From assembly GCA_007135395.1 (NCBI GenBank), contig SLIZ01000160.1:1-41974 (forward strand): a DNA stretch of 41,974 bases. Reading direction: 5' to 3'. Positions 10,580 through 17,266 of this stretch are shown here, in pieces. The notes under the pieces are model-generated. The model did not search any database. It had not been told where the DNA came from and was given only the letters and a program-made list of their open reading frames with translations. Source of the DNA: Wenzhouxiangellaceae bacterium. GTDB lineage: Bacteria > Pseudomonadota > Gammaproteobacteria > Xanthomonadales > Wenzhouxiangellaceae. The position numbers and the translations under genes were made by a program. Numbering within the stretch: position 1 is the first letter of the stretch; each line of letters starts with the position of its first letter.

Positions 10580-11272
10580 ATGGGAATCTTTTCAAGACTG
10601 GGCGACATTATCAACGCCAATCTCAATTCACTTCTGGAAAAGGCCGAGGATCCGGAAAAGATCATCCGGCTCATGATCCAGGAAATGGAGGACACCCTGG
10701 TCGAGGTTCGCTCGGCAGCGGCCAAGACCATCGCCGAGAAGAAGGAGCGCCAGCGCCTCATCGGCCGACTTGAACGCCAGCAGCAGGAGTGGGCCAGCAA
10801 GGCCGAGCTTGCCATGGACCGGGATCGGGAAGACCTGGCCCGGGCAGCCCTGGCCGAGAAGACCGCCCTGGGCGACCGTGTAACCGCTGTGAAAGAGGAG
10901 CTCAAGGCGCTCGAAGATCAGCTCGACAAGTACAACACGGATATCGGCAAGCTCCAGGCCAAGCTGGAAGACGCCCGGACCCGGCAGCGAGCCATTGTCA
11001 TGCGCCACAAGTCCGCATCGACCCAGCTCAAGGCCAAGCGCCAGATTCACAACGAGAAGATCGACGAGATGCTGCACCGCTTTGATTCAGCCGAGCGCCG
11101 GATCGACTCCATCGAGTCCGAGTCCGAATCACTGGACATGGGCCGGGACAAGCAGCAGCGTTTGTCCGACGAAATCCACAAGCTTGAGCAGGACGAACGT
11201 GTAGACGCCGAGCTTGATGAACTCAAAAAGAAGATGGGTCGAGGAGGCCAGGACAATGCCGTACGGGGCTGA
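10580..11272 (+). CDS. pspA: Phage shock protein A
   Basis: 230-residue coiled-coil protein of the PspA/IM30 (ESCRT-III-like) family. It polymerises on damaged inner membrane to limit proton leakage and, in enterobacteria, inhibits PspF in unstressed cells. The N-terminal amphipathic helix MGIFSRLGDIINANLNSLLE and the long charged coiled coil ending in HKLEQDERVDAELDELKKKM are typical. The ATG follows AAGGAG with proper spacing; upstream in-frame sequence is non-coding leader. Followed by pspB (10-base gap) and pspC. Confidence 0.97.
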   Translation: MGIFSRLGDIINANLNSLLEKAEDPEKIIRLMIQEMEDTLVEVRSAAAKTIAEKKERQRLIGRLERQQQEWASKAELAMDRDREDLARAALAEKTALGDRVTAVKEELKALEDQLDKYNTDIGKLQAKLEDARTRQRAIVMRHKSASTQLKAKRQIHNEKIDEMLHRFDSAERRIDSIESESESLDMGRDKQQRLSDEIHKLEQDERVDAELDELKKKMGRGGQDNAVRG

Positions 11273-11282
11273 ATCATTTGTC

Positions 11283-11531
11283 ATGACCGGGCTGACCAAC
11301 ATCTTCGGGATGCTCTTTGTCCTGACCGTGCTGTTCCTGGTGATCGTTGCACCGTTGTGGATCATTTTCCACTACGTGTCCCGATCCTCGGCCAGCAAGC
11401 GCCTGTCAAGCGAGGATGAAGCCATGCTCGAGGAAATCTGGGAAAGCGCCCAGCGAATGGAAGAACGGATCCAGACCCTCGAACGCATTCTCGATGAGGA
11501 AACCCCCGGCTGGAGAAGGAGTCGAACATGA
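11283..11531 (+). CDS. pspB: Phage shock protein B
   Basis: 82-residue inner-membrane protein with one N-terminal helix (about 4-28) and a cytoplasmic leucine-zipper-like helix ending in RMEERIQTLERILDEETPGWR, very like E. coli PspB. With PspC it senses envelope stress and releases PspF from PspA. The ATG was chosen by alignment to the family N terminus, and upstream in-frame starts overlap pspA. The stop overlaps the pspC start in an ATGA. Confidence 0.95.
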   Translation: MTGLTNIFGMLFVLTVLFLVIVAPLWIIFHYVSRSSASKRLSSEDEAMLEEIWESAQRMEERIQTLERILDEETPGWRRSRT

Positions 11532-11932
11532 ACAAGTCCGTCCCCACCAGACGGCCCCCACGCCGTTCGGAAAGGTCCCGGCTATACCGGGACCGGGAAA
11601 ACAGAATCCTCGGAGGCGTCTGCGCCGGACTTGCAGACTACTTCGGTTTCAACCGGGTGGCCTTGCGGATCATCCTTATCGTAACCGCCATCCCGTTTAC
11701 CCTGTCGGTCATCCTGGGATACCTGGCGCTGATGATCCTGATCCCGGCCCGGCCCAGAGACCTCTACCGGAGTCCGGAAGAAGAGGAGTTCTGGAAAGAA
11801 GTCAAGCAGGCACCGGCAGACCGGCTGGGTCGGGTACGCCACCAGATGCGAGGCCTGGAGAACCGCCTTCAGCGAATGGAGGCCTGGGTAACCTCCCGCC
11901 AGTACGAGATCGAGCGGGAACTTAACCGATAG
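11528..11932 (+). CDS. pspC: Phage shock protein C
   Basis: 134-residue PspC-domain inner-membrane protein, partner of PspB in stress sensing. The PspC domain (about 18-75) contains RLYRDRENRILGGVCAGLA and two hydrophobic stretches ending LGYLALMILIP. A charged C-terminal tail (RMEAWVTSRQYEIERELNR) follows, as in enterobacterial PspC. The start overlaps the pspB stop. No pspF gene is next to this operon, unlike the usual divergent arrangement. Confidence 0.95.
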   Translation: MNKSVPTRRPPRRSERSRLYRDRENRILGGVCAGLADYFGFNRVALRIILIVTAIPFTLSVILGYLALMILIPARPRDLYRSPEEEEFWKEVKQAPADRLGRVRHQMRGLENRLQRMEAWVTSRQYEIERELNR

Positions 11933-13000: not shown

Positions 13001-15562
13001 TTACTGTTCCGGCGAGTCCATGGCTTCGATGACGGATTCCCGAAGCTCGCGAGCCCGCCGGATTTCCGGATGCTCCGGATCGGAATGCTGCTCCTTGTAG
13101 TTTTCCAGCGCCCGATCGGCCCATTCCACGGCCTTGTCCGGTTCTCCGGCTTCCAGGAACAGCCGCGCCAGCCCCCGGTAGGAATTGGCAACGTGGCTGT
13201 GGACCTCTCCAAGCAGGTCCTTGCGGACCTCCAGTGCTTCCTTGTGAAGCTGTCTTGCGGTGTCGAATTCGCCCTGGTCCATGCGCAGGACCGCCAGATG
13301 ATCGGTAATGGCGGCAGTCTGCACGTGATGGTCTCCGTGGGCCTCCCGGCTTCCGGCCAGTGCCCGCTCGATCATGTCTTCGGCCCCGTCCAGGTCTCCG
13401 GTCTCGCGCAGCACACCAGCCAGCGCATTCTGGGACCGGAAAAGGGACGGATGCCCTTCCGGATAATGCTCCTCCCGTAACTCGACCGCTTCGGCCAGCG
13501 CTGGCCGAGCATCCTCCGGTCGTCCATCGTGCAGCCGTGTGATCCCGATCTGGTGCAGCGTGACCGCCAGATCCGGATGCCGGTCTCCCAGGTACCGCCG
13601 ACGGATTTCCAGCAGCTCCTGATATTGACGCTCGGCTTCCGTCCGGTCACCCAGGCCACCATGGGTATGGGCGATGTTTCCGATCAGGGCCAGGGTCTTG
13701 TCATGGGACTCTCCAAGCTGTTCCCGGCTGATCTCCAGGGCCCGCTCGAAGACCTCCAGGGCCCGGTCATGCTGGTCCAGTACGGTGTATAACCTGCCCT
13801 GGGTATTGAGGGTCCGGACAAGGGCAGAGGTCTGGTCATCGGCCTGCTCCTGGATTTTCATGGCCTGACTCAGTTTCTCTTCGGCCTCGTCATACCGATT
13901 CATTTCAATCAGAGTGTTGGCCCGGTGTGTCAACAAATCGGCAAGGAAGGACTGGTTGTCCGGTGGCCGGGCCTGATCGGCCCGGTCGAAAAAGTCCAGG
14001 GACGCGTCGTACTCCCCCTTCTCCTCCGCAACCGCCCCAAGTGCCGACAGAATTTCCGCCCTGACCTCATGAGGGGGCTCGAAAGTCACTTCAGCTACGC
14101 CATATGCCCTTTGCAGCAGCTTCTCGGCCACCTCGGCATCTCCCAGCAAGCTGCTTACCCGGGACAGTTCCCGCAACATGTCGATCTGGACTTCCGGGGT
14201 CTCTTCCAGCATCGCGATCCGTTCGATGCCCTGATCGAGAAGGTCCCGGGCAGTCACCTCCTCACCGCCGGTTGCAAAGGGGTCGGCGTGCTCGAACAGG
14301 CTGACCAGGAATTCATTCACGACCTCGGCATGACGGGATGCCAACCAGGCCCGGTCGGCTTCCAGCCGGGTCTGTTCGGCCTGCCACAGGGCATGACCAC
14401 CGGCCAGGAATATCCCTGCCGCCAGCACCGCTCCAACCGTTACCGGCCAGCGGTTCCGGCGAAACCACAACCCTGCCCGGCCCGCGGGCCCGGGCGGCCG
14501 GGCGCTGACTGGCCATCCGGTATCCAGACGTTCCAGATCATCCAGCAGCTTCTCGGTGGAAGCATGACGAGCCTCGGGAGCCTTCGCCGCCGCCTTGCGG
14601 GCAATGGCGGCCAGGTCCCGTCCCCGGGGGAGACGAGACCATCTGCCGTGCTCGGGATCGAAGGCATGGTTTTCGGAGTTGCCTTCCATCAACCAGGCCA
14701 GCAGCATTCCCATGGAATAGATATCCGTCGCCACGGACGGGCTTTCGCCTTGCAATAACTCCGGTGCCGAAAATCCCGGGGTCAGCGCCAGGGTCTGGTC
14801 ATTTCGGTCATCCTCGGACTGGAGCCGGGCCAGGCCGAAGTCCAGGAGCTTGACCCGGCCACCGGAAGTGATACGGATATTGGACGGCTTGATGTCGCCA
14901 TGAACAACCAGCCCCCGGTGGGCCGCCGCCAGAGCCCGGACGATTTCCCGGAAAAGATTGATGCGTTCAGCGGTAGATCGATCGCCCTCGTGAATCCAGC
15001 GGGTCAGATCCTGACCACTGATCCATTCCATGACCAGGTAGGGCTGACCGTCCTCGGTCAATCCCCCGTCAAGAAGCCGGGTAATGGCCGGATCATTCAG
15101 TTGCGCCAGAAGCCGGCGCTCCCGCTCCAGGATCTCGGCAAGTCCTTTCCGGGCATGAAGGATCAGCTTGACGGCCACCTGCATTTCGAAGGCTCCGTCG
15201 GCCCGCTCGGCCCGGTAGACCTGGCCCATACCACCCCGGCCCACCGGCTCGATCAGTCTCCACGCGCCCAGTCGTGTCCCCTCGGGCAGGGTTTCTGCCG
15301 GCTGACGGGTCGCCTCCCTGGTCGACCCCATGAGCCGTTGCCCGGCGCCTTCAACAAACAGCGTTGGACGGGCGCTGGCCTGAACAAGACGTTTCAGCCA
15401 GGCCCCGGTTCGCGGTGCCCGGCGTGCACAGCGTTCGACAAAGGCCTCCCGTTCCCCCTCTTCCAGCTCCAGGGCCTGGTCCAGCAACCGGTCCAGGATC
15501 TCGTGGCGCCACGGGGTCAGACGGGCAAGTCCGGATGCCCGGGATGGAGAAGAATTACTCAT
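13001..15562 (-). CDS. Membrane Ser/Thr protein kinase with C-terminal TPR domain
   Basis: 853-residue bacterial Hanks-type kinase. Order: an N-terminal segment (1-95); a cytoplasmic kinase domain (about 97-345) with glycine loop VGRGGMGQVY (107-116), Lys132, catalytic loop HGDIKPSN (221-228) and DFG (241-243); one transmembrane helix (about 372-392); then about 450 residues of tetratricopeptide repeats, probably periplasmic. The catalytic loop has HGD instead of HRD, a non-RD kinase. The ATG overlaps the end of the upstream ECF sigma gene by 8 bases (ATGAGTAA), so the two are co-translated. Such pairs are known in which the kinase controls the sigma factor by threonine phosphorylation (Vibrio PknT/EcfP). 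The TPR region presumably senses an envelope signal; the signal is unknown. Confidence 0.93.
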   Translation of the reverse strand: MSNSSPSRASGLARLTPWRHEILDRLLDQALELEEGEREAFVERCARRAPRTGAWLKRLVQASARPTLFVEGAGQRLMGSTREATRQPAETLPEGTRLGAWRLIEPVGRGGMGQVYRAERADGAFEMQVAVKLILHARKGLAEILERERRLLAQLNDPAITRLLDGGLTEDGQPYLVMEWISGQDLTRWIHEGDRSTAERINLFREIVRALAAAHRGLVVHGDIKPSNIRITSGGRVKLLDFGLARLQSEDDRNDQTLALTPGFSAPELLQGESPSVATDIYSMGMLLAWLMEGNSENHAFDPEHGRWSRLPRGRDLAAIARKAAAKAPEARHASTEKLLDDLERLDTGWPVSARPPGPAGRAGLWFRRNRWPVTVGAVLAAGIFLAGGHALWQAEQTRLEADRAWLASRHAEVVNEFLVSLFEHADPFATGGEEVTARDLLDQGIERIAMLEETPEVQIDMLRELSRVSSLLGDAEVAEKLLQRAYGVAEVTFEPPHEVRAEILSALGAVAEEKGEYDASLDFFDRADQARPPDNQSFLADLLTHRANTLIEMNRYDEAEEKLSQAMKIQEQADDQTSALVRTLNTQGRLYTVLDQHDRALEVFERALEISREQLGESHDKTLALIGNIAHTHGGLGDRTEAERQYQELLEIRRRYLGDRHPDLAVTLHQIGITRLHDGRPEDARPALAEAVELREEHYPEGHPSLFRSQNALAGVLRETGDLDGAEDMIERALAGSREAHGDHHVQTAAITDHLAVLRMDQGEFDTARQLHKEALEVRKDLLGEVHSHVANSYRGLARLFLEAGEPDKAVEWADRALENYKEQHSDPEHPEIRRARELRESVIEAMDSPEQ

Positions 15563-16154
15563 CGGCTCCCATCTCCACCAGCATCCAGGCCCGGGCCCGC
15601 TGCCACTTGCGGGCCACGGTTCGCCTGGAAACCCCGAGGATTTCACCCACTTCGTCCAGGGTATAGCCACCAAAGAAGCGGGCGATGACCAGTTCAGCCA
15701 TGTCCGGATGCCTTTCGGCCAGCCGGTCCAGTGCTTCATGAACCGCGATTACCGCCCGGGCATCCTGCTCGTCGCCGGCAAGCTCCTCATTCAGGGATAC
15801 ATCGTCGTGACCGCTGCCACGCTTGGCCGACAGCCGCTGACGGGCATGATCCACGATGACCTGGCGAATCACCATATTGGCAAGCCGCATCATGTGGCGT
15901 TGATTCCGGGGGACTGCAATATTGCTTTGTCGAAGCTTGAGAAAAGCCTCGTGAACGACCATCGTGGTCTGAAGGGTGGGCCCGACCCGGAATCTGGCCT
16001 TCTGCATGCCGGCCAGACGGCGCATGTCCTCGTAGATCAGGGGCAGAATCCGATCGAACACCCCGGGCTCGGCTTTCAGTTCTTCCAGCAGGCGACTGAC
16101 CTCGGACTCGTCCGGGCTCACCGCAGTGTCGTTTTCCCGTTCCGAAAAACTCAT
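15555..16154 (-). CDS. ECF sigma factor of the kinase-linked (TIGR02999/ECF43-like) type
   Basis: 199-residue extracytoplasmic-function sigma factor. Region 2 lies at about 30-110 and region 4 at about 130-190, with the helix-turn-helix YTLDEVGEILGVSRRTVARKWQRAR. No anti-sigma gene is present. Region 2.2, normally an acidic DAED-like patch that contacts the beta-prime subunit, reads VGPTLQTTMVVHEAFLKL. The acids are replaced by Thr60, Gln62, Thr63 and Thr64. In the studied Vibrio EcfP such a sigma factor is inactive until a threonine in this region is phosphorylated by its partner kinase. The kinase gene overlaps this stop, so the same switch is likely. Regulated promoters are not visible here. 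Confidence 0.92.
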   Translation of the reverse strand: MSFSERENDTAVSPDESEVSRLLEELKAEPGVFDRILPLIYEDMRRLAGMQKARFRVGPTLQTTMVVHEAFLKLRQSNIAVPRNQRHMMRLANMVIRQVIVDHARQRLSAKRGSGHDDVSLNEELAGDEQDARAVIAVHEALDRLAERHPDMAELVIARFFGGYTLDEVGEILGVSRRTVARKWQRARAWMLVEMGADE

Positions 16155-16208: not shown

Positions 16209-17159
16209 TCAGGACTCCGGCGGGGCCTCGTGTCCGGACGGGCCTTCCCCTGGGTAGGAGCGCTCACCGGCCTCGATCCTGAGATCCAGACGGTTTTCCG
16301 GTGGCGGCAGGGGACAGGTGGTGTGTTCGTTGAACGCACAGGGCGGGTTGTAGGCCTTGTTGAAATCCAGGGTCATCGTGCCATCGACGGGCAGATCGGC
16401 GTAGAGAAAGCGCCCGAGACCGTAGGTTTCCCGACCGGAGGTGCGATCGGCCAGGATAAACCAGTACTGATCTCCGGCGGCACTTTCCACCGCTTCCAGG
16501 CGAAATTCCGCTCCATCCACCGAAAATACCGCGGCCCCCGGGTTGGCCCGCTCGGCAACCTCGCCGGTTACATCGGCGATTTCCAGCACAGTCCCTTCCG
16601 GGTGCTCTTCGAATTCGGCCTCGATGGCCCATTCGGGATCCACCGGATACCAGTCAAGGCCGGCAAAATTGCGACGGGGAGTCGATTCCCGATCCCGCAC
16701 CCGGACAAACATGCCCGAAGCCCGCTCGATGAGGTGCACCCGGATTGCGTTGGACTCGATGTTCGTCGGTCCATCATCCCCATCGGCAACCAGCTCCGTG
16801 GGTCCGGAAGCATCACCGTTTACCGTGCCGGAAAACTCCGGACCCGGAACAAACTCGATCCGGTCGTCGCTGGAGACAATGGTCCCCCATAACTCCGGTC
16901 CCCGGTCAACAACCAGATCATTGTCCCGCCCGCTGCCGATATCGAATCGGTCGCTGTCAACCGGTGCCATACCCGCAAGGCTGAGCCAGCCGTATGGTTC
17001 CCGCAGCCGTTCTTCCCGGTCCTCGCGCCATTGCTCGATCCGCTCGATGTATGCAGTCGGTTCGGATTCATGTTCCGACGGGCCGTTTTGCTCGGTGACA
17101 GACTCACAGCCTGCCACCAGGAAAACACTCAACAAGACTATTGACAGGCACCTGTTCAC
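16209..17159 (-). CDS. DUF1684 lipoprotein
   Basis: 316-residue predicted lipoprotein: signal peptide with lipobox LVAGC (Cys18), then the DUF1684 domain. The YGWLSLAGM motif lies near residue 56, and the diagnostic C-terminal LDFNKAYNPPCAFNEHTTC and LPPPENRLDLRIEAGE follow. Conserved Asn, Cys and His residues in that stretch suggest a metal- or hydrolase-like site, but no activity is established. It starts at GTG with a strong GGAGGG ribosome-binding site 6 bases before. It lies 54 bases upstream of the ECF gene on the same strand and could share its transcript. Confidence 0.88.
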   Translation of the reverse strand: MNRCLSIVLLSVFLVAGCESVTEQNGPSEHESEPTAYIERIEQWREDREERLREPYGWLSLAGMAPVDSDRFDIGSGRDNDLVVDRGPELWGTIVSSDDRIEFVPGPEFSGTVNGDASGPTELVADGDDGPTNIESNAIRVHLIERASGMFVRVRDRESTPRRNFAGLDWYPVDPEWAIEAEFEEHPEGTVLEIADVTGEVAERANPGAAVFSVDGAEFRLEAVESAAGDQYWFILADRTSGRETYGLGRFLYADLPVDGTMTLDFNKAYNPPCAFNEHTTCPLPPPENRLDLRIEAGERSYPGEGPSGHEAPPES

Positions 17160-17266
17160 GACGGCCCTCCGATTGTTCGCAAGATTTCCGGACGGAAACC
17201 TGATAATTGGTCAGCTTCGAGTGTACCAACAAGGTCGTTAACCCGGCTATTGCACAAATATCCGGG

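Follow-up and report, generated by a model that had tools for sequence, protein, structure and literature searches.

A further ECF43-type sigma factor and membrane kinase pair, with a predicted phosphorylation switch, in a Wenzhouxiangellaceae bacterium

An ECF sigma factor gene that overlaps the gene for a Ser/Thr kinase, in a contig of a Wenzhouxiangellaceae bacterium (GCA_007135395.1, contig SLIZ01000160.1; 41,974 nucleotides, hereafter the window), raises the question of how a sigma factor with an uncharged region 2.2 motif would be activated. The sigma factor gene (15555-16154, minus strand) codes for a protein of 199 amino acids, assigned to the ECF43 type from its open reading frame, a profile match, a structural model and fold matches. 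In profile searches the product exceeds the curated cut-offs of both PF07638 (5.5e-37) and TIGR02999 (8.6e-48). Its region 2.2 reads TLQTTMVVHEAF; residues 60 to 71 are T-L-Q-T-T-M-V-V-H-E-A-F, and the positions of the DAED patch are taken by Q62-T63-T64-M65, with no acid among them. By contrast, two ordinary ECF sigma factors of the same genome, aligned by eye, are acidic at the matching positions (DAMDVIQDSF in L183 and AEDWVQDAF in L182). Thus, the threonines that the first-pass annotation had placed where the acids of region 2.2 would be expected are indeed there, and no intact acidic patch emerges once the sequences are aligned. An AlphaFold2 model of the protein (mean pLDDT 78) consists of two helical domains with a disordered linker (residues 116-126) between them, and its best Foldseek matches are the ECF sigma factors SigW and E. 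coli sigmaE, with low TM-scores that probably stem from a different packing of the two domains. A search of the PDB with the sigma factor sequence gave no match at E 0.001.

In ECF43 sigma factors the DAED acids of region 2.2 are replaced, the consensus being QTTA, and an adjacent Hanks kinase phosphorylates the Thr, with no involvement of an anti-sigma factor (PMC13147305, PMC8999054). EcfP of Vibrio parahaemolyticus has a single phosphosite, the second Thr of STTA, a cognate kinase, PknT, and polymyxin as the signal (described in PMC8999054). EcfK, the ECF43 member of Xanthomonas citri, is phosphorylated by PknS; Thr51 corresponds to the phosphothreonine of the EcfP type and Thr106 is a second switch site, published in 2026 (PMC13147305). 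EcfK T51E is constitutively active (PMC8999054, PMC13147305), T51A alone is functional and only the T51A/T106A double substitution is dead (PMC13147305). We recovered EcfK by searching the PknS sequence, taken from the PDB alignment, against the order; this led to a Xanthomonas genome with a 99% identical PknS, next to which lies a sigma factor reading frame that fits all five published EcfK residues (T51, within QATE, T104, T106, S108 and S110). In a profile alignment, Thr64 of the window protein (codon at 15963-15965, minus strand), predicted to be the phosphosite equivalent to EcfK Thr51 and to the second Thr of EcfP STTA, falls on EcfK Thr51. Ser120 (codon at 15795-15797, minus strand), the predicted linker phosphosite, falls on Thr106, in an alignment that is free of gaps from a shared SAKR onward. 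In the model, Thr64 lies near the start of a helix (residues 63-76) and Ser120 within the disordered linker.

The kinase gene (13001-15562, minus strand; 853 aa) was delimited from its open reading frame, profile matches and overlapping start: the mechanical reading frame is open from 15739, but the ATG at 15562 is the natural one to begin from; ATGAGTAA there overlaps the stop codon of the sigma factor gene by 8 nt, an arrangement that bears out the proposed translational coupling of the two genes. The kinase domain (residues about 97-346; 14525-15274, minus strand) was located by profile match and inspection of residues. It is followed by a single predicted transmembrane helix (residues 374-392; 14387-14443, minus strand; Kyte-Doolittle peak 1.83) and, beyond this helix, by a TPR region (13091-13942, minus strand; TPR_12 and TPR_10 matches), the predicted periplasmic sensor part. 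The layout is that of PknS and PknT, with an N-terminal kinase domain, one transmembrane helix and a C-terminal part that would be extracytoplasmic, and it agrees with the large outward TPR sensor of the first-pass annotation, the membrane orientation being one that we infer. The best match of the kinase in the PDB is PknS itself (9EED; E 5.5e-41), which outranks every other kinase there and aligns over both the N-terminal extension and the kinase domain. PADLOC matches, which could have pointed to a defence system, are generic kinase-domain matches and were set aside.

The catalytic loop of the window kinase does not have the H/YRDxKxxN form found in PknS (PMC13147305) and reads HGDIKPSN. The HGD codons lie at 14894-14902 on the minus strand. 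Since the catalytic residues K132, D223, N228 and D241 and the DFG are present, the enzyme looks like a variant rather than a broken kinase. Non-RD kinases are usually activated without reliance on phosphorylation of the activation loop, and the window kinase may be activated in this way. HRD occurs in PknS and in most of the kinases surveyed, whereas all 11 linked orthologues (L053-L060, L066-L068) have HGD, as does every member of the 33-row clade to which the window kinase belongs (support 99). A literature search found no papers on non-RD kinases of this class.

No anti-sigma gene was seen among the neighbours, which, besides the kinase, code for PspA, PspB, PspC, an enoyl-CoA hydratase, a DUF1684 protein and a mannose-1-phosphate guanylyltransferase, in line with the earlier claim that the locus has none. 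The phage-shock genes pspA, pspB and pspC lie nearby on the opposite strand (10583-11932, plus strand).

Because both sites align with those of EcfK and PknS is the best match in the PDB, the pair is best read as a phospho-switch pair of the ECF43 type, with a mechanism already worked out in Xanthomonas, a member of the same order. We put at roughly 0.82 the probability that the sigma factor is of the ECF43 type and activated by phosphorylation, with the membrane kinase as its cognate partner. On sensing an envelope signal by means of its periplasmic TPR part, the kinase would phosphorylate Thr64 in region 2.2 of the sigma factor and probably Ser120 as well, within the flexible linker that joins domains 2 and 4. 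The negative charge of the phosphate would stand in for the missing acids, and the phosphorylated protein would bind core RNA polymerase and switch on its regulon, with no need for an anti-sigma factor. The prediction of a phospho-switch free of an anti-sigma factor, made at the outset, is thus well supported by the QTTx motif, the coupled kinase, the alignment with EcfK and PknS as the nearest solved kinase. The sigma factor combines an ECF fold, an uncharged QTTM, co-occurrence with a Hanks kinase and a Ser at the linker position, all of which are expected of ECF43. Against this reading, T51A alone does not inactivate EcfK (PMC13147305), and the window kinase is non-RD, unlike PknS.

The pair resembles EcfK/PknS in the Thr at the DAED position, the Ser or Thr at the linker position and the adjacent Hanks kinase with an N-terminal extension, one transmembrane helix and periplasmic TPRs, in the same order of bacteria. 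It differs in its motif, QTTM, which holds no residual acid whereas EcfK has QATE, and in its catalytic loop, HGD against HRD; no type VI secretion genes were recognised among the neighbours examined; and the two sigma factors are distant, EcfK forming a long branch in the sigma factor tree. With EcfP, as described in PMC8999054, it shares a wholly uncharged motif (STTA in EcfP), the second Thr of that motif as the phosphosite, predicted in the window protein, a cognate kinase and the lack of an anti-sigma factor. In groups ECF59, ECF61, ECF62, ECF217 and ECF283 the sigma factor gene also adjoins a Ser/Thr kinase gene, but a DAED-like acidic motif is kept there (PMC8999054), which the window protein lacks. 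The mechanism being known from Vibrio and Xanthomonas, the pair is a further example and not a new kind of system. The earlier statement that signal, phosphosite and regulon were unknown in this lineage stands for signal and regulon but not for the mechanism, given EcfK/PknS in the same order. The locus offers a further lineage in which to study the ECF43 phospho-switch, with both known phosphosites present and a region 2.2 without residual acid.

Which residues would carry the phosphate was examined in 117 homologues from relatives of the same family and order. The position of Thr64 is readable in 116 of them and is a Thr in 113, whether or not a kinase gene lies alongside; of the remaining three, two read NTRV and one DTAA. 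The linker position is Ser, Thr, Asp or Glu in 64 of 83 scorable homologues (77%), against 76.9% reported for ECF43 at the position of EcfK Thr106 (PMC13147305). Of the candidates listed by the first-pass annotation, Thr60, Thr63 and Thr64, only the last aligns with a published phosphothreonine; Thr60 lies outside the motif, Thr63 is replaced by Pro, Ala, Val or Arg in many homologues, and both are disfavoured. The linker site was missing from that list, and the sigma factor probably has two switch sites, Thr64 and Ser120. The two NTRV sequences belong to kinase-adjacent sigma factor paralogues (L075:6377-7039 and L107:4526-7576) with an Arg at the phosphosite position, and because of this Arg they cannot, as far as sequence tells, use a switch of the Thr64 type.

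The near-invariance of the Thr makes its co-occurrence with a linked kinase uninformative as a test of the switch. Because homologues that have no kinase nearby retain the Thr as well, the presence of Thr64 alone does not prove a phospho-switch or phosphorylation by the neighbour; this conservation regardless of the kinase is the main weakness of the sequence-based case. Among named genomes, a set partly selected by QTT patterns in the alignment query and hence with biased counts, the Thr is kept in 12 homologues with no kinase within 3 kb; a search of the named genomes with the single sigma factor sequence gave no match, and plasmid relatives are all distant. The near-invariance of Thr64, with a kinase adjacent or not, fits a scheme in which the main switch would be Ser120, with Thr64 chiefly structural, capping the N-terminus of the region 2.2 helix, which it begins in the AlphaFold2 model; the functional EcfK T51A and the dead T51A/T106A are also in keeping with it (PMC13147305). 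However, this very Thr is the single phosphosite of EcfP and EcfK T51E is constitutively active (PMC8999054, PMC13147305), and QTTM is wholly uncharged, like the motif of EcfP and unlike that of EcfK, so that a phosphate on Thr64 should be needed more, not less. We regard a linker-centred switch as conceivable but unlikely.

A second alternative is that several paralogous kinases would serve the sigma factor in trans, the adjacent kinase not being its sole activator. The genome contains about ten paralogous sigma factors (nine strong and three weaker PF07638 matches) and 12 kinase-domain matches above the cut-off; a kinase adjoins eight of the nine strong sigma factors, and the ninth runs into a contig edge. 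Among named genomes the nearest relatives come from Wenzhouxiangella species and Wenzhouxiangellaceae MAGs, and the family is rich in such pairs. In close relatives the operon runs sigma factor, kinase and, third, dnaJ (or cbpA), often divergent from a DnaE2-like polymerase gene, and the window has in common with them only the sigma factor-kinase pair, not dnaJ or the polymerase. The kinase is linked in 11 of the 16 closest relatives; in the other five (L061-L065) it is gone from between sigma factor and dnaJ, the order of polymerase, sigma factor and dnaJ being unchanged, and all five sigma factors keep QTTE and a Thr in the linker, that is, both sites. In quick maximum-likelihood trees, for which SH-aLRT values are the only support, these five fall inside the kinase-linked group, a clade of 16 (support 98) to which the window sigma factor, with QTTM and without the acid of QTTE, is sister (support 93); because of this nesting, the simplest reading is loss of the kinase in place. 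Some genomes in which the sigma factor has lost its neighbour hold unlinked HGD kinases (L296, L297, L298) that are more like the window kinase (E 1e-142 to 1e-148) than is one linked kinase (6.6e-121).

The kinase-less relatives that keep both sites and the unlinked HGD kinases both speak for activation in trans. Against it, the sigma factor clade (41 rows, support 100) and the kinase clade (33 rows) consist largely of the same loci and track each other, so that both genes have travelled together, and the overlap of the kinase start with the sigma factor gene speaks for a matched pair. Activation by several kinases in trans is, in our judgement, rather improbable, as is a wider picture in which sigma factors of the Wenzhouxiangellaceae branch work with HGD kinases free of RD-type activation-loop control and, in species where the adjacent kinase was deleted, a sigma factor with both sites would answer unlinked kinases in a many-to-one network. 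Returning to the pair as a cognate ECF43-type switch, the relatives amount to a natural experiment, the operon with and without kinase between unchanged flanks, and allow a direct test of whether an ECF43 sigma factor can do without a neighbouring kinase.

A DUF1684 lipoprotein gene had been noted just upstream of the pair. Its product has 316 aa, with a GTG start at 17159 and a lipobox-like VAGC, and the gene lies on the same strand, 54 nt upstream of the sigma factor. That the DUF1684 protein acts with the sigma factor and the kinase as a single functional unit for sensing is highly improbable: the same strand, the short gap and a promoter-like element ahead of the DUF1684 gene allow that it may be co-transcribed with the pair here, but DUF1684 is single-copy, elsewhere in the genome, in 52 of 60 relatives (53 of 61 genomes with that of the window), occurs in three family members without a sigma factor match (G019, G030, G035), is never beside an ECF43 gene in any fetched orthologue locus, and gives way to dnaJ/cbpA as third operon gene in relatives. 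This lack of conserved adjacency largely refutes a DUF1684 unit; the position is as noted, but the gene is incidental to the system and not a conserved part of it.

The promoter-like element, TGGYAMACT and mostly TGTGGCAMACT, precedes the sigma factor gene at 9 of 12 linked loci and 4 of 5 kinase-less loci, but 0 of 99 other paralogues (present at L054-L057, L059, L060 and L062-L068), is nearly unique in each genome and provides a handle on operon control. The element resembles an extended -10 element, but one whose hexamer begins with C, which is unusual for the housekeeping sigma factor; either sigma-70 or the ECF sigma factor itself might recognise it. A search for a shared promoter motif, including the region upstream of 17159, had been suggested; it gave a single match in the window on either strand, the variant TGGTACACT upstream of DUF1684 (17220-17228, minus strand), a candidate operon promoter that is weak alone, about 1.3 matches being expected by chance per 42 kb. 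The exact 12-mer TGTGGCAMACTR has 17 matches in 20 genomes, against 7 for the reversed control, with 11 of these matches at this sigma factor, so that no wide regulon can be read from it. Together with the in-place kinase losses and the non-RD kinase clade, the element is what is new here, if modest, and what could repay work. Rare further copies (L276, L288, L289, near position 1500) precede one gene that, judged by eye, is universal-stress-protein-like and two that are diguanylate-cyclase-like; these are possible regulon members or chance matches.
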